Assembly: GCA_027051265.1 (NCBI GenBank)
Contig: JALTZH010000244.1
Location: 1-8,266, forward strand
Source of the DNA: an archaeon
GTDB taxonomy: Archaea > Hydrothermarchaeota > Hydrothermarchaeia > JALTZZ01 > JALUTC01
DNA: 8,266 nt
Direction: 5' to 3'
This document shows, one piece after another, positions 318-8,202 of the stretch. The stretch's first letter is position 1, and every line of letters begins with the position of its first letter. The position numbers and the translations under genes were made by a program. Under the pieces are notes generated by a model. The model was given only the letters and a program-made list of their open reading frames with translations, did not search any database and was not told the origin of the DNA.

Positions 318-1358
318 TTATTGTTCCATTTCTTTTAGCAGGTTTCTTATAGCAATTAGTTCGAGGTGGGATTGGGGTTTAAGAATTTTTTTTCTTGGGT
401 CAGCGAAGAGGATATTTTTTTCGATGAGGAATTGTATTGTCGGATTTATTTCTTTATATTTGAGAGAGTTTTTATCACGGAATTCTTTAAGCAGTTCGAT
501 TATTTCTTCGAATCTTCTCTCGTTTAACCTTTTTTCCTTGTAAATAATCTCCTCCAGCTGCCCATACCTTATCTCATAAAATTCCTCGCACAACTCCTTA
601 ACATCTTTGCCTACTTTCTTTGTCTGTATTGCCTCAACAAGATATATCGGCTTCCCTCCAAAATAATACCAAACAAGATTTATTTCCTCATCGCTAAATC
701 CTTTGCTACGTAATACCCTCTCGACAGTCTTTCTATCAAAATCATCCACCAAATAGTACCTCGAACGTCCTTGCAGCATCGCTTCGTTGTAAATCCTTTC
801 GATAAAAGTCGAATCCGATGTGATTGCAAAGACGTGACAAAGCTTGAGTTCTTTAGTTAGTCTTATAAACAGATTGAATAATCGGTAAATTAAAGGTTCA
901 TTTACTTTGACATCCTTGATGACTTGTAGCTCGTCAAATATTATTATAGGCATTAAACCTTTTTCTTTAAGTTTTTGCAACGTTTTTATGATATATCTAA
1001 AGACTCCTCGATAATCTTTCTCACGTCTCTCGAACATTAATTTAAACGTCCCAAAAGAAATAGGAATACCGAAGCTTAACCTCGAAATCTTATCGACTAT
1101 CTTTTCTATGCTAAAATCCTTTTCCTCATACGTTTCGAACAAAATTTCATAAAACTCTTCCTCCTTCGTTATTTCCTCACCCCTCAAATTTATGTAAAAT
1201 GCAACGTATTCCTTTGGTAAAATGTTTTCAACCAAATGTTGCATCAAAACAGTCTTTCCTGAATTTATAGGCCCATAAATAAATGTGATCATGTTTGGCT
1301 CCTGCTTTATCATGTTCAACAAATCTCGAAGCTCTTTCTCACGATTGTAAAACTCCAT
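318..1358 (-). CDS. Archaeal AAA+/STAND-type ATPase (Arch_ATPase-like) with C-terminal winged-helix-like region
   Basis: A 346-residue P-loop ATPase of the large archaeal family seen in many, often lineage-specific, copies in archaeal genomes. Visible motifs are Walker A GPINSGKT (residues 29-36), Walker B IIIFDELQ (138-145), a sensor-1-like strand ending AITSDS (178-183), and a GGKP motif (234-237) in a helical segment, typical of this clade. The last ~80 residues are charged and helical, ending in a short beta-like segment, suggesting a winged-helix tail. No signal peptide or membrane segment is seen. The ATG at 1358 directly precedes the conserved FYNREKEL start that is characteristic of the family, so the start is well placed. 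The gene stands 90 bases behind the preceding leftward operon and probably has its own promoter. Codon use is distinct: it uses CGT/CGA arginine and GAG glutamate more freely, while the helicase and histone are dominated by AGA and GAA. That fits a mobile or recently acquired family, though cellular role and partner are unknown. Confidence 0.85.
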   Translation of the reverse strand: MEFYNREKELRDLLNMIKQEPNMITFIYGPINSGKTVLMQHLVENILPKEYVAFYINLRGEEITKEEEFYEILFETYEEKDFSIEKIVDKISRLSFGIPISFGTFKLMFERREKDYRGVFRYIIKTLQKLKEKGLMPIIIFDELQVIKDVKVNEPLIYRLFNLFIRLTKELKLCHVFAITSDSTFIERIYNEAMLQGRSRYYLVDDFDRKTVERVLRSKGFSDEEINLVWYYFGGKPIYLVEAIQTKKVGKDVKELCEEFYEIRYGQLEEIIYKEKRLNERRFEEIIELLKEFRDKNSLKYKEINPTIQFLIEKNILFADPRKKILKPQSHLELIAIRNLLKEMEQ

Positions 1359-1448: not shown

Positions 1449-2126
1449 TTAAACAATAAGAGTATTAAAAAAAGCTTTTCCGTATATGATTGAATCGTAA
1501 TCCTTTAGATGAATTATTCTACCGGATATCTTTTTCCTAACTTTTGAATACGAATCTATTATAAATATTTCTATAACGTTTTTTCCTTTTTTTCTTATCT
1601 TTCTCTTGATTTCATAACACTCAAGCATCTTTACCTCATCATCCTTAGGAATTAGTACTGAAGCTACTATATTCTCTTCTGATAACGTTTTGAGAAAATT
1701 TTCAATATTTTCATGCTTTTCATGAACTTTAACGAAACAAAACCTCGCATTTCCAATCCTCTTTACATATTTAAGAGAGTTTATAACCTCTTTATAATCG
1801 GTTTTTAACGAAAACAACATGCTTCTAATATTTTTTAGAGGTTTAACGCTTGCTTCATTACCCTTAAGTAATTCAATCGCCGATTCTATATCTAAGAGCT
1901 TTATATTTCTTTCAATCAAAAATCTTTTGAAAAATCCGGATACCTTGAGGAATACATTTCTACCATCATAGTAAAAAGGTTCTGATACCAATATCTTTTC
2001 GAGAAAATCTGTAACTTCATAACCGAGTTTATTCATCATATCAATAATACTTCCATAAATCGTATCTGAATCAATTCTTAAAGGATTCCCAGAAACGTAT
2101 TTAAATTCAACAATAAAATTCTTCAT
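1449..2126 (-). CDS. Reduced Csm4-like (Cas5-group RAMP) protein
   Basis: A 225-residue lysine-rich protein that I read as a shortened Csm4 relative. Csm4 is the Cas5-group subunit that caps type III CRISPR effector complexes, contacts Cas10 and holds the crRNA 5' handle. Seen here: an N-terminal strand FIVEFKY, then LRIDSDTIYGSI (16-27), which matches the HSDTLFGAL-type segment of Csm4, then SEPFYY (48-53), in the place of the SSAFPY-type motif. A strand IGNARFCFVKV (124-134) lies where Csm4 has its glycine-rich GGDRSSGFGRF-type loop. The C-terminal end, with GRIIHL and YGKAFF (215-220), matches the VYRYGYAF-type ending. Canonical Csm4 is about 300 residues; this one is shorter and its glycine-rich loop is almost gone, so crRNA binding may be altered. 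It is the last gene of the ABCE1 block, overlapping the previous gene by 20 bases, which implies coupled translation. The ATG at 2126 starts directly at the first predicted strand. The family call rests on pattern matching by eye; an unrelated ferredoxin-like-fold protein is possible. Confidence 0.5.
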   Translation of the reverse strand: MKNFIVEFKYVSGNPLRIDSDTIYGSIIDMMNKLGYEVTDFLEKILVSEPFYYDGRNVFLKVSGFFKRFLIERNIKLLDIESAIELLKGNEASVKPLKNIRSMLFSLKTDYKEVINSLKYVKRIGNARFCFVKVHEKHENIENFLKTLSEENIVASVLIPKDDEVKMLECYEIKRKIRKKGKNVIEIFIIDSYSKVRKKISGRIIHLKDYDSIIYGKAFFNTLIV

Positions 2127-2991
2127 ATATAATTTTTAAATACTTAGCTAATAGGAATAATGTCTTTTGGAACTCTTCGTTATAATCACAGCTTATCATA
2201 TATTTTGAGAGGGAACTACTTAAAAAGTTATAGAGATATCTAAACCTTTTGATTGATTTTGGAAACCTAACGAAGATGTTTCCATGCTTCATTTTATCTA
2301 AAATTTTAATCAAGAAGCTGTGAAGCATCGTTAAGCAATTCCTAGATAAGTTATAATCCTTAACATCTTTATATATCATAACAAGTAAGTTTGAAAATCT
2401 CTCATCATCTAATCTAAGGATTGAACCATCAACGTATATGAACAAATCTTTTCTGTTGGTCTTAAGTATTTCGACAAATTCTTTTAGTTTTGGTAGAATC
2501 AAACTTTCGTAATCCGTTTTGAGATGTATAACGTTGGAAATATTTTCCACGTTTTTGTATAGAAGAATTCCAAACTTATATACATCTGAGATAAAACCTA
2601 TGGAGGAATATTTCCTTATATAATTGTTACATTTCTCACAAATGAACTCATGTTCTATTGCTTTATCACATACTTTACAATTACGTGTACCAATTCTTAT
2701 GTTGAAAATTTTTGGCAAAATCGTTACGTTTTTGTAAAAAACTTTAGGTATACAGATGTTCATCGTTTCGAATATTTTTGTTAGATATCTTTCAAGAGTT
2801 CCTTTATCGAAATTCTTAATATGGAACGTATATGTATTCATTTTGTATCCTAAAAATTTCGCACCATGATTTTCAAGAAAGGAAAATAGATTTCTCCTCA
2901 TTTCTTTAAAAATCTCGTATCTTATTGGTATAAAATTTTTGTTCAAAAATAAGTATCTCTCCAAATTATCGAACACCACTGTTATTCTCAT
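2107..2991 (-). CDS. Miniature Cas10-like protein with zinc finger, no HD domain and no GGDD motif
   Basis: A 294-residue protein whose order of elements resembles the core of Cas10/Csm1. Residues 1-100 look like a first palm-like domain: strand ITVVFDN, helix 24-40, strand TYTFHIKN (53-60), helix 65-77, then a strand. This parallels the Cas10 order of IQ-FIF strand, helix, GGRFYLLLPN strand and helix. A zinc finger follows with C105, C108, C118 and C121 (CxxC-x9-CxxC), placed as in Csm1 between palm 1 and palm 2. A second half has strand LFIYVDG (183-189), helix SRNCLTMLHSFLIKIL (about 214-229) and strand NIFVRF where Cas10 carries GGDD; here there is no GGDD, so cyclic oligoadenylate synthesis is not expected. 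There is no N-terminal HD nuclease and no D4 domain; Cas10 is usually 700-900 residues. The ATG overlaps the ABCE1 stop in ATGA, and the gene overlaps the Csm4-like gene by 20 bases. The partnership with a Csm4-like gene strengthens the call. It could instead be an unrelated zinc-finger RNA-binding protein. Confidence 0.45.
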   Translation of the reverse strand: MRITVVFDNLERYLFLNKNFIPIRYEIFKEMRRNLFSFLENHGAKFLGYKMNTYTFHIKNFDKGTLERYLTKIFETMNICIPKVFYKNVTILPKIFNIRIGTRNCKVCDKAIEHEFICEKCNNYIRKYSSIGFISDVYKFGILLYKNVENISNVIHLKTDYESLILPKLKEFVEILKTNRKDLFIYVDGSILRLDDERFSNLLVMIYKDVKDYNLSRNCLTMLHSFLIKILDKMKHGNIFVRFPKSIKRFRYLYNFLSSSLSKYMISCDYNEEFQKTLFLLAKYLKIIYEEFYC

Positions 2992-4736
2992 ACATAGTAA
3001 TATTCTCCCAATTTCTTTTGATACCTATCCATTTTACTTCCAGGTTTATTAACTCTTGGTCTCTTCGTATCCTTATCCCTTCTAAAAGTTATATCAAGCG
3101 TTTTCAGAAATATGTTCATACCTTCTCTCATAGATAATGGTTTAGAAGCATATCCTCTTCTCTCAGGTTCTCCTGTAAACACTATTAACTTATCGGAAAC
3201 GTAATCTATTAAGATGAGATCGTGATCTACAACGAAACATAAAGCCTTTCTTTTTTCAATTATTCTTCTTATAATTTTGGCAACGTTTAACCTTTGTTCT
3301 ACATCGAGATATGCAGAGGGTTCATCTATCAGATATATATCCGCAGGTTTTGATAGGCATGCAGCGATTGCAACTCTTTGTAACTCTCCACCACTTAGGT
3401 TACGTAGGATTTTAAACCTTATATCTTCGATACCTAATTGTTTGTAAATTTCTGTATGGAAGAGTTCATCCTTTGGTATCTTCTTAAAAAATTCTTCAAC
3501 GGTTAAATCCGAATCGAGTTTTATGTACTGTGGTTTATATGATACGGATGCCTTTCTTTCTATATCACCAAAATCTTGTTTTAATTCTCCAGCCAATATT
3601 CTTACAAAAGTTGTTTTTCCTATAGAATTAGGTCCAAGAATTCCGATTATTTCTCCTTTATGAAATTCTCCCGATTCTGCTTCAAGAGAAAAACCATCGT
3701 ATGATTTCTTTATTTTTGTATATCTTAGGTAAATCTCGGGTTTTTCTTCTCTTAAATCCTTTCTTTCAAAAAATCTTATCGCTGCATCTCTGAATCTAAC
3801 ATTTTCGTCCTTTATATATCCTTCGAGATACATGTTTATACCTTCTCTCGTAGATTTTGGATTTGATACTATTCCATATACTCCAGGTTTTCCGTAAAGT
3901 ATTACAACATTATCCGCAATATAATCCAGAAATATTAGATCGTGTTCAACAACTATAACAGTCTTTTCATCTTTTAATAGCTCTCTTATTATTTTTGCAA
4001 TCTTTAATCGTTGAGATACATCCAAATAGCTGCATGGTTCATCAAATATATAAACATCGTAATCTTTCAAAAGGCATGCGGCAATTGCTAATCTTTGTAA
4101 CTCTCCTCCACTTAATATTGTTACATCTCTTTCCATTACATTCTTTAGTTCCAATTTTTCAACCACTTTATCCACGTTTCCACCTAATCTTTCAAGAACA
4201 TCCTTAACCTTACCTTTAACATACTTTCTGATCAAATCCACGTGTTGAATTTTATGAACAACTTTAATCTTTCCTTTGTATAAATTGTTGAAATAATCGT
4301 AGAGTTGAGTGTTCTTAAAAGTTTTAAGCACATTATTTTTATCGGAAGAATTCCTGCCGAAATTTGGTATGATCTCTCCTGAAAATATTTTTAGAAGTGT
4401 TGTCTTACCCAAAGCGTTTTGTCCAACAATACCAAGAGCCATTCCCTCTCTAAGGTATGGTATGCGATATAATCTGAAACCATTTATCCCATATTGATGA
4501 ATCTTAAACTTATCATACTCATCTGGTAAAGATACGATACCAATTGCTCCAAACGGACATTTTTTAACACATAAACCACATCCGGAGCATAAGTTTTCCT
4601 TTATTATAGGTCTTTTCTCATCGTCAGAAAAAACTATGGCTTCCTTTCCAGTTTTTAACATGGGGCAATATTTGAGACATTCTCTTGAACACTTTTTTGG
4701 TTGGCATCGATCCTTTTTTAAAACTGCAATTCTCAT
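2988..4736 (-). CDS. abce1: ABCE1/RLI ribosome-recycling ATPase
   Basis: A 582-residue ABCE1, the iron-sulfur twin-ATPase that splits ribosomes into subunits after termination, working with aRF1 or Pelota in the cytoplasm. The N-terminal ferredoxin-like domain has all eight cysteines (C11, C16, C20, C24, C50, C53, C56, C60) for two 4Fe-4S clusters. NBD1 has Walker A GQNALGKTT (105-113), signature LSGGELQR (208-215), Walker B FDEP (232-235) and H266. NBD2 has Walker A GPNSIGKTT (369-377), signature LSGGELQR (448-455), DEP (472-474) and H506. Two hinge segments (about 288-305 and near 535-550) and the C-terminal GEYYYV ending are family hallmarks. Length is close to the usual ~590-600. NBD1 is somewhat divergent, with QNAL in Walker A, IQHVD at the Q-loop and DEPCSYLD after Walker B, but no catalytic residue is missing. 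The ATG at 4736 starts at the conserved MRIAVLKKDRC. It leads an operon with the Cas10-like and Csm4-like genes, and a C/D sRNA lies just upstream on the same strand. Confidence 0.97.
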   Translation of the reverse strand: MRIAVLKKDRCQPKKCSRECLKYCPMLKTGKEAIVFSDDEKRPIIKENLCSGCGLCVKKCPFGAIGIVSLPDEYDKFKIHQYGINGFRLYRIPYLREGMALGIVGQNALGKTTLLKIFSGEIIPNFGRNSSDKNNVLKTFKNTQLYDYFNNLYKGKIKVVHKIQHVDLIRKYVKGKVKDVLERLGGNVDKVVEKLELKNVMERDVTILSGGELQRLAIAACLLKDYDVYIFDEPCSYLDVSQRLKIAKIIRELLKDEKTVIVVEHDLIFLDYIADNVVILYGKPGVYGIVSNPKSTREGINMYLEGYIKDENVRFRDAAIRFFERKDLREEKPEIYLRYTKIKKSYDGFSLEAESGEFHKGEIIGILGPNSIGKTTFVRILAGELKQDFGDIERKASVSYKPQYIKLDSDLTVEEFFKKIPKDELFHTEIYKQLGIEDIRFKILRNLSGGELQRVAIAACLSKPADIYLIDEPSAYLDVEQRLNVAKIIRRIIEKRKALCFVVDHDLILIDYVSDKLIVFTGEPERRGYASKPLSMREGMNIFLKTLDITFRRDKDTKRPRVNKPGSKMDRYQKKLGEYYYV

Positions 4737-5647: not shown

Positions 5648-5863
5648 ATGGGAGAAATCTCGATATCTGCAGCTGATAGGATTATTAGAAAAGCAACTGG
5701 AATGAGAGTTAGTGAATCTGCGGCAAAAGCATTGGTGGAAATTCTCGAAGAAATAGGTACAAACATCGCCGAAAAAGCTGGTAAACTTGCTAAGCATGCA
5801 AGAAGAAAAACTGTAAGAGCTGAAGATATAAAGTTTGCTTATGAAGAATTGTATAGAAAATGA
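5648..5863 (+). CDS. Archaeal histone (HMf family)
   Basis: A 71-residue histone-fold protein that wraps DNA as dimers and larger stacks. Alpha 1 is SAADRIIRKAT (about 7-17), loop 1 contains GMRVS with the DNA-binding arginine, the long alpha 2 runs over about 22-49, and loop 2 to alpha 3 has the hallmark RRKTVRAEDI (52-61). Length is within the usual 66-72 and there is no tail extension, so it is a minimal HMf-type protein. It has a Shine-Dalgarno site and a likely promoter of its own. Its stop codon overlaps the ATG of the downstream helicase in ATGA, so helicase translation is probably coupled to histone translation. Arginine codons are almost all AGA/AGG. Confidence 0.97.
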   Translation: MGEISISAADRIIRKATGMRVSESAAKALVEILEEIGTNIAEKAGKLAKHARRKTVRAEDIKFAYEELYRK

Positions 5864-8202
5864 AATGCCCTCTCTGTAATAGTGAACTTCTGATAATAAA
5901 ATACGATGAAAGATATGCAGTTCTATGTTTTAGATGTAAGATTAAGGAATCAATTCTTGCAAAATCTGATCAAGAAGCATATGAAAGATTTATTAATATT
6001 ATAAATAATAAAATAAAAAGAATTCCAGACGAACTGAAAGGATTATTCAACGAAATAATCTTCATAAAGGATATTAAACAGGATTCAATTCCTTTTGGTA
6101 AAAGAGTTGAAGATCTGAATATTGATGAAAGATTAAAAGCAGCGTTAAAAATACTTGGAATTGATAGACTTTACAAATTTCAAGAAGAAGCTCTTAAAAA
6201 AATTTTAGAAGGAAGAAACGTCGTCATCGTCGCTCCTCCAGCAAGTGGTAAAACCGAAGCATTTTTAATACCAATTTTAAACAAGATTCTAAACATGAAC
6301 AAAAGAGGTGTTAAAGCGTTACTTGTATATCCAACTAAAGCGTTGGCAAGAGATCAGTTGAGAAAGTTTAAAAACTATGAGAGAATTTTAGGTATAAGAT
6401 TTGAAGTGTTTGATGGTGATACAAGTATAGAAGATAGAGAAAGAATATTCAACAACCCACCGGATGTTTTGATAACAAATCCAGACATGCTACATTATCA
6501 TCTCAATACAAGATATAGATTCTTATTTACACGAATCGATTTTTTAGTTTTGGATGAAATTCACGAATATAAAGGGGTTCTTGGTACAAATGTATATTTT
6601 ATTATAAGAAGATTAAAAAGGTTTAAAAAGTTTCAAATAATTGGTTCAAGTGCTACTATAAAGAATCCCAAAGAATTTGCATCCCAACTTTTCGGTGAAG
6701 ATGTAGAACTAGTTAAAGAAGAGTTTGGAAAAAGAAAAATGAAGATATTAATGTTATATCCGAGAAAAAATTCCTATTCACTTGTTCTTAGGTTGTTGAA
6801 GATGTTTCACAACAGAAAAGTTTTGGTTTTTGCAAACTCGCATAGAGTTGCTGAGCTATTAACACTGATTGCAAAAAAATCCGGATTAAACGTTGATATA
6901 CATAGAGCTGGTTTAAGTAAAGAACATAGGATAAACGTTGAAGCTTCGTTTAGAAATGGATCCTTGAAGCATGTGATTTCAACACCGACATTGGAACTGG
7001 GTATAGATATAGGAGATGTCGATATCGTTATAAGCTATATAATAAACTATACCAGACTTCTTCAAAGGTTTGGAAGAGCTGGAAGGAAAGGACAGTTGAG
7101 TTATGGTATTATTATACTCAAGGAAGATGATACCATATCAAATTATTATAGGAACTATCCGGAAGATTTCTTTTCAGATATAGAACCTATATACCTAGAG
7201 ATAAAAAATGAAGATGTTGCATATTTCCAAATACTTGCTGCAAGTCTGGATAAATATATAAGAGAAGAAGAGTTCGATGATTTCAAATATATACTTGAGA
7301 AGCTTGTAAAAGAAAAGCTACTGAAAAAGGTTGGAAAGTATTATGTACCGGATGAAAAAAGGGTTAAGAGTATCGTTAGAAAATATAGTATAAGAAATGT
7401 TGGTGATAATGTTTTGATAAAGTATAACAACAGAATTATTGGTGAGAGAAATTTACCAATAGCTTTAAGAGAATTATATCCTAATGCAATATACATACAT
7501 GGAGGTCAGATATTTAGAGTGAAAAGGTTCAATCTTAAAGAAGCGGAATTAGAAAAATATTATCGTGACAACATTAAAACGGAACCTTTGAGATATTCTA
7601 TTCCTGAAATTATAGAAAGAATAGAAAGTAAAAAAGTTTTTGGTATGGAAGTTTCGTATTGTAAGTTGATGATAAATGAAATCGTATACGGATACGTTGA
7701 AAAGGAAGTGTTTTCCAACAAAACGATATCAAAAGAAATTTACGATGATGAGATAAGTTACAGCTATGTAACAAGAGGATTTGTATTCAAAGCTCCAAAG
7801 CTTGAAGAATATGATGAGGAAAAGGTTTCAGGAAGTTATCATGCTTTGGAACATGTGTTGATAGAATCGTCTGATATGCTTACAGGAAGTAGTAATAGTG
7901 AGATTGGAGGTATTGCGATGAGTAATGGGTTTATATTCATTCATGATGCATGTAAAGGTGGCAACGGAGTATCAAAACTTCTTTATGAAAGATTGGAAGA
8001 TGCATTGATTCGATCGCTTAAAATACTTGAAGGATGCGATTGTAAAAGAGATGATGGATGTCCAAGATGCACGTATTCCTATAATTGTGGAAACAACAAC
8101 AGACCATTATATAAAGTTGGTGCTATTGAGTTAATCAAGAGAATAATCTCAGGTTATGTAACAAGAGTTGAAGAATTATCTTTAGGAAAATATTACGTTT
8201 AG
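5860..8202 (+). CDS. SF2 DEAD/DEAH-box helicase, MrfA/Hrq1 type with C-terminal DUF1998 (MZB) zinc domain
   Basis: A 780-residue superfamily 2 helicase of the group containing bacterial MrfA and eukaryotic Hrq1, 3'-5' DNA helicases linked to repair of crosslinks and other damage. In order: an N-terminal zinc ribbon with C3, C6, C23 and C26; a Q-motif-like FQEEAL (107-112); Walker A APPASGKT (125-132); motif Ia YPTKALARDQ (157-166); TNPDML (206-211); DEIH (232-235); SSAT (263-266); a second RecA domain with VFANSHRVAELL, STPTLELGIDIG and the arginine-finger motif QRFGRAGRKG (402-411). Near the C terminus HALEHVL and GGNGVS lead into a cysteine cluster, C726, C728, C734, C737 and C743, matching the DUF1998/MZB domain. 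The N-terminal ribbon is not something I associate with MrfA or Hrq1. The ATG overlaps the histone stop in ATGA and the ribbon begins at residue 3, so the start is secure. Which damage it acts on in this archaeon is inference. Confidence 0.92.
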   Translation: MKCPLCNSELLIIKYDERYAVLCFRCKIKESILAKSDQEAYERFINIINNKIKRIPDELKGLFNEIIFIKDIKQDSIPFGKRVEDLNIDERLKAALKILGIDRLYKFQEEALKKILEGRNVVIVAPPASGKTEAFLIPILNKILNMNKRGVKALLVYPTKALARDQLRKFKNYERILGIRFEVFDGDTSIEDRERIFNNPPDVLITNPDMLHYHLNTRYRFLFTRIDFLVLDEIHEYKGVLGTNVYFIIRRLKRFKKFQIIGSSATIKNPKEFASQLFGEDVELVKEEFGKRKMKILMLYPRKNSYSLVLRLLKMFHNRKVLVFANSHRVAELLTLIAKKSGLNVDIHRAGLSKEHRINVEASFRNGSLKHVISTPTLELGIDIGDVDIVISYIINYTRLLQRFGRAGRKGQLSYGIIILKEDDTISNYYRNYPEDFFSDIEPIYLEIKNEDVAYFQILAASLDKYIREEEFDDFKYILEKLVKEKLLKKVGKYYVPDEKRVKSIVRKYSIRNVGDNVLIKYNNRIIGERNLPIALRELYPNAIYIHGGQIFRVKRFNLKEAELEKYYRDNIKTEPLRYSIPEIIERIESKKVFGMEVSYCKLMINEIVYGYVEKEVFSNKTISKEIYDDEISYSYVTRGFVFKAPKLEEYDEEKVSGSYHALEHVLIESSDMLTGSSNSEIGGIAMSNGFIFIHDACKGGNGVSKLLYERLEDALIRSLKILEGCDCKRDDGCPRCTYSYNCGNNNRPLYKVGAIELIKRIISGYVTRVEELSLGKYYV

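Follow-up and report, generated by a model that had tools for sequence, protein, structure and literature searches.

We describe a pair of overlapping genes in an archaeal genome, one for a trimmed Csm4 and the other for a small zinc-ribbon protein, that is best read as a reduced, guide-independent leftover of a type III-A CRISPR complex, probably still functional. Our best explanation, put forward tentatively, is that the pair could be a strongly reduced type III-A (Csm) effector remnant retained as a protein-only module. Such a pair suggests that a piece of the CRISPR machinery has been retained for a different task.

Gene order and the ABCE1 neighbourhood

The window (the whole stretch of DNA that was analysed, 8,266 nucleotides) is the entire contig C244 of an archaeal metagenome-assembled genome, G000, whose assembly of 1.46 Mb is divided into 257 contigs and is 95% complete. 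Two overlapping genes had been picked out in an earlier note made from the sequence alone, and both proved to be real and to lie at the positions given there. They are transcribed from the minus strand between ABCE1 and an ATPase gene, in the order ABCE1, P0002, P0001, MJ1010-like ATPase:

2988..4736, minus strand: ABCE1 (RNase L inhibitor family), recognised by Pfam Fer4_RLI and two ABC_tran stretches
2107..2991, minus strand: P0002, small zinc-ribbon protein of 294 aa, a possible reduced Cas10; open reading frame upstream of the csm4-like gene
1449..2126, minus strand: P0001, Csm4-like protein of 225 aa, recognised by PADLOC PDLC01276, phmmer, an AlphaFold2 model and a structure match
318..1358, minus strand: MJ1010-like archaeal ATPase downstream of the pair (ATPase_2, E 1.7e-53)

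The start of P0002 overlaps the end of ABCE1 by 4 nt, the two genes of the pair overlap by 20 nt, and together with ABCE1 they are arranged as if in one operon. Sixteen other ABCE1 neighbourhoods from the class were inspected, and none contained a comparable pair. In G002, a genome of the same order rated 100% complete, there was no ABCE1 match at E 1e-100, possibly because the gene is split over contigs.

The plus strand of the window carries genes for a pyruvate-ferredoxin-oxidoreductase-type subunit, a histone and an MrfA-like helicase. The histone gene and the helicase gene (which encodes an MZB zinc domain) overlap by 4 nt within positions 5648-8202 in an operon-like arrangement. Searches of the window for tRNAs, Rfam RNAs and repeat arrays were negative. 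The MJ1010-like ATPase belongs to a multi-copy family and is probably unrelated to the P0001/P0002 pair. The family has eight matching places in G000, two of them with internal stop codons, and the other copies are 75-48% identical; copies on contig C88 of G000 and contig C147 of the same-genus genome G001 are likewise close to type III cas genes, which may be coincidence or may mark recombination points.

Csm4 identity and predicted fold of P0001

Judged from its sequence and its structural model, P0001 is a true Csm4 derivative whose core fold is predicted to be kept. It matched the PADLOC Csm4 profile PDLC01276 (E 4.6e-8), the Csm4 of G001 (phmmer E 6e-12) and a profile of 26 other Csm4 proteins (hhalign probability 96.7). 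An AlphaFold2 model computed from a 24-row Csm4 alignment reached pLDDT 93.1 and pTM 0.90, and matched solved Csm4 with Z 20.9 over 218 residues (rmsd 2.6), compared with Z near 8.7 or below for Cmr3, Cas6 and type VII Cas5 (8.5 for the last of these) and a weak Foldseek match only for type IV-A. There was no csf2, DinG or cas14 among the window genes. Since Csm4 relatives were present in the alignment from which the model was built, the fold does not count as fully separate evidence from the sequence match, although a sequence that did not fit would hardly reach such confidence. The Csm4-like identity put forward in the earlier note is thus borne out, and the two motifs named there, SDT-x-YGS near the N terminus and YGKAFF at the C terminus, are both present in P0001. 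Other, weak matches to P0001 on contig C115 of G000 and in G043 and G048 were dismissed as cysteine-desulfurase-like and other unrelated genes.

The only clear relative of P0001 in 61 genomes was the Csm4 of G001 (JALUTC01 contig 128, 305 aa), which is encoded in a type III-A operon, csm2-csm3-csm4-csm5, followed by a Csm6-like gene. In the tree P0001 is sister to this protein with support of 100/99, both branches being long; the two are 35-38% identical in the C-terminal half and share YSKV (in place of EGSI) and a GRII-LKD stretch. Since P0001 groups with a full-length III-A Csm4 and shares the derived YSKV with it, P0001 is by these comparisons a reduced descendant of a full-length III-A Csm4, and the suggestion that the pair might be an ancestral minimal form was rejected. 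The G001 Csm4 (locus L051, 1453-2370 on C128), which is full-length, has itself lost the near-invariant EGS motif, with AYSKV instead, as well as the GGW turn. As YSKV is also found in G001, where the locus looks intact, departure from the Csm4 consensus is not always loss of CRISPR function.

Loss of guide-gripping parts from P0001

Three segments of P0001 were located by alignment with other Csm4 proteins:

2049..2069, minus strand: SDTIYGS, conserved Csm4 N-terminal motif, P0001 residues 20-26, aligned with SDTLFGAI of other Csm4
1824..1844, minus strand: thumb junction, P0001 residues about 95-101; other Csm4 carry here a thumb with LDRxT, which is absent
1740..1769, minus strand: degenerate remnant of the glycine-rich loop, about YVKRIGNARF, P0001 residues 120-129

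Set beside the Csm4 proteins of T. onnurineus (6iqw_E) and S. epidermidis (8do6_B), P0001 has the same profile, the same order of core elements and the same predicted fold over most of its 225 residues. It is, however, 60-80 residues shorter, in keeping with the earlier remark on its small size; the LDR thumb is absent, the glycine-rich loop is mostly gone and no Csm3 or Csm5 gene adjoins it. There is no counterpart in P0001 of the T. onnurineus Csm4 segment around residues 115-156, which includes the LDR motif. The arginine of this motif (R136 in T. onnurineus Csm4, where it apparently keeps the flipped -1 nucleotide of the crRNA in place; PMC10289348) was present in 26 of 27 other Csm4 proteins and is missing in P0001. 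The glycine-rich loop, G-x-GG-x4-G-x-G-x-F, is reduced to KRIGNARF: its G-x-G-G, the first glycines of which occur in 26/27 Csm4, is gone, while one later glycine and the phenylalanine are retained. The G001 Csm4, in contrast, retains both LDRVT and FGGERSIG. Core positions that P0001 does retain in the alignment (27 Csm4 compared) are S55, F159, S216, P220, S251, G258 and G275. On this alignment evidence the thumb and most of the glycine-rich loop are lost from P0001. The loss of these crRNA-gripping parts supports the reading, also offered in the earlier note, that the pair has left CRISPR immunity.

The zinc-ribbon partner P0002

The CxxC-x9-CxxC zinc finger previously reported for the larger protein is present in P0002, and two segments of this protein bear on its relationship to Cas10:

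2629..2679, minus strand: zinc ribbon CKVC-x9-CEKC (P0002 C105, C108, C118 and C121), seen in the sequence and the best local match to the Csm1 profile
2419..2442, minus strand: FIYVDGSI, P0002 about residues 184-191, the place of the GGDD hairpin if P0002 is a Cas10; positioned by eye

P0002 has no GGDD, a motif that some genuine Cas10 proteins lack as well, nor even one GG dipeptide. The pairing of YVDGSI with YSGGDD was made by eye alone and was not reproduced by MAFFT, and we do not count it as evidence. An N-terminal HD domain is likewise absent, the gene starting at the ABCE1 stop with at most 11 further in-frame residues. No family was found for P0002 in Pfam, NCBIfam, PADLOC or PHROGs beyond weak zinc-ribbon matches (Zn_ribbon_6 and DZR_2), which were set aside as reflecting the cysteines. 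No relatives were recovered by HMMER in 394 genomes, by pattern scans of genome and viral contigs or by tblastn against plasmids and phages; the sole match in another genome (G096, E 4e-4) lay inside a hydrogenase/NADH-dehydrogenase-type gene and was rejected. No second genome with the P0001/P0002 pair was found, so that the pair is known from one genome.

When P0002 was compared with a profile of 26 archaeal Csm1 proteins, its strongest local match lay in the ribbon. With a gap-tolerant profile dynamic-programming alignment and both shuffles and real proteins as controls, the Csm1-profile score of P0002 fell within the controls (z 1.3 relative to shuffles, 1.15 relative to real proteins), and 27 of 176 real proteins scored as well. 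A rank test slightly preferred Cas10 windows for P0002, a preference probably driven by the cysteines, and the N-terminal half ranked the III-B Cas10 of G000 itself high among the comparison proteins, if weakly (8.5 bits). When P0002 was aligned with Csm1 cores by MAFFT, the cysteines came into register and the Palm2 motifs did not, and this alignment was set aside as a basis for structure prediction. The single-sequence model was poor (pLDDT 39) and its Foldseek matches were meaningless; residues 1-76, at a low confidence somewhat above that of the rest, were modelled as beta-alpha-beta-beta-alpha, a prediction that would fit Palm1 and equally any RRM. The Cas10 of the III-A locus of G001 could not serve as a bridge, being missing from the G001 assembly. 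The Cas10-like identity proposed earlier for this protein was not confirmed, there being no family match, a Csm1 score within controls and a model at pLDDT 39; comparison by profile and fold, which identified P0001 as a Csm4, gave no useful match for P0002.

The likeness of P0002 to Cas10/Csm1 consists of the mid-protein zinc ribbon, the predicted N-terminal beta-alpha-beta-beta-alpha arrangement and a gene near csm4, whereas it differs in length (294 aa against 750-910), in having neither HD nor GGDD and in giving no significant sequence match. We lean modestly towards P0002 being a Cas10, mostly from gene position and the ribbon; if so, it would be one without HD domain and cyclase motif. 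It is rather unlikely, by our estimate, that P0001 is a retained Csm4 derivative while P0002 is no Cas10 but an unrelated or RAMP-like zinc-ribbon partner, which would make the pair a new combination. The missing statistical link to Cas10 speaks for such a partner, as does the N-terminal beta-alpha-beta-beta-alpha, which is an RRM/RAMP pattern too and is not specific to Cas10. Yet Cas10 is laid out in just this way, with a Cys-rich ribbon in mid-protein and a csm4-type gene immediately downstream, and the Cas10-directed signals from the ribbon and, weakly, from the N-terminal half also speak against an unrelated partner.

Other CRISPR components in the genome

The earlier note had seen no other CRISPR component, which is correct for the window but not for the genome. 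No csm2, csm3, csm5, Cas1, Cas6, Cas7 or Cas11 was found in the window, and no CRISPR array either there or on the contig with cas1 and cas2. Elsewhere in G000 there are a III-C locus on C24 (Cmr6, Cas10c, Cmr4 and a Cmr5-like gene), III-B genes on C22 (a Cas10 with GGDD, and Cmr3) and C88 (Cmr1), and cas1/cas2 on C117. The absence of a Cas7 near the pair, which the note had also pointed out, was upheld: a RAMP search of the fragmented assembly gave III-B and III-C RAMPs only, without csm3 or csm5, and the same search recovered the III-A Csm3 and Csm5 of G001. Because the assembly is fragmented, this absence is not proof. A stand-alone HD gene on C232 was discarded as an ordinary HD protein.

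A working role for the pair in CRISPR immunity in trans, either with the Cas7 subunits of III-B or III-C or with csm3/csm5 genes that were not assembled, strikes us as distinctly unlikely. G000 does contain III-B and III-C effectors and cas1/cas2, its assembly is in 257 contigs at 95% completeness, and the III-A Cas10 that is absent from the G001 assembly illustrates how such genes drop out. However, the III-B genes already include a Cas10 and a Cmr3 and the III-C locus a Cas10, P0001 is without the elements that hold the crRNA 5' tag, and III-A Csm3 and Csm5 were found by the RAMP search in G001 and not in G000. We regard a negative regulatory role as very improbable. In that role the pair, free of RNA, would mimic Cas10-Csm4 and compete with, or buffer, the type III subunits of its own cell. 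Its coexistence with III-B and III-C systems and the loss of guide-gripping parts would fit such a dominant-negative form, but the pair is most closely related to III-A, and G000 yielded no III-A complex that it could regulate.

Three further features of these loci were noted. On C117 the cas1 and cas2 genes (L142, 1297-2588) are divergent and their contig is 15 kb long. In G001, the neighbours of cas1/cas2 resemble genes of a type I system (L143). The III-C locus on C24 contains, between cmr6 and cas10, a nucleotidyltransferase/HEPN-type toxin-antitoxin-like pair (L048, 714-1444).

Reading frames and selection

At the base composition of the window, frames as long as those of the pair would arise by chance with probabilities of about 1e-8 and 4e-11. 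The P0001 frame is open although the protein is no more than 35% identical to the Csm4 of G001; between G000 and G001 the identity is 72% for cas1, 76% for cas2 and about 59% for the III-C genes. As the frames have stayed open in spite of P0001 being far more divergent than these genes, selection is favoured over recent decay; the coding composition of P0002 is weak (GC1 0.29 vs 0.44 in ABCE1), which cautions against certainty on this point. We consider it unlikely that a III-A locus is decaying here, with csm2, csm3 and csm5 deleted and the pair left as genes that are still open and no longer selected. Missing partners, missing functional loops, the composition of P0002 and the want of relatives elsewhere are all in favour of decay. 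Both frames are nevertheless intact despite high divergence, the tight overlaps with ABCE1 and between the two genes are retained, and the losses from P0001 fall on RNA-contacting segments while the core is modelled at pLDDT 93, an outcome that random decay would rarely produce.

A possible protein-only module and its known counterparts

Under the explanation that we prefer, a strongly reduced III-A remnant, P0002 would be the matching Cas10, cut down to Palm1, the zinc ribbon and a degenerate Palm2/D4 and carrying neither HD nuclease nor cyclase residues. P0001 and P0002 may form a heterodimer, which is plausible because solved Csm1-Csm4 cassettes exist (binary structures 6mua and 6o74-6o7b) and which, by analogy with these, would be of the same kind. 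Such a heterodimer would use no guide RNA, and could serve, without catalytic activity, in binding or regulation and be produced along with ABCE1. The most specific version seems to us improbable: a Cas10 and Csm4 core that has lost guide RNA, catalytic sites and Cas7 backbone, is expressed along with the ribosome-recycling factor ABCE1 and works, as a heterodimer of proteins only, outside CRISPR.

Reduction of type III systems with a dead Cas10 is known, and the Cas10 of type III-I has no detectable sequence similarity (PMC12669027). Types III-G, III-H and III-I and type VII follow the same trend towards loss of Cas10 activity (PMC12669027), but all of them retain Cas7 and a crRNA-binding complex, whereas no Cas7 was found near the pair. 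We found no paper in the open-access literature that describes a Csm4-type pair without Cas7. With Cas7 and crRNA retained in the reduced type III forms that have been described, a trimmed Csm4 and a small partner outside a cas locus would be an extreme step, and the pair would make guide-free reuse of the Cas10-Csm4 unit testable; were it only a relic, it would still show which parts go first. A miniature Cas10, mCpol of the Panoptes system, is active and makes cyclic nucleotides (PMC12657218, PMC12657230). Like mCpol, which is Cas10-derived, P0002 is small, lies outside a CRISPR locus and may possibly derive from Cas10; mCpol is an active enzyme, whereas P0002 is without GGDD and is paired with a Csm4.
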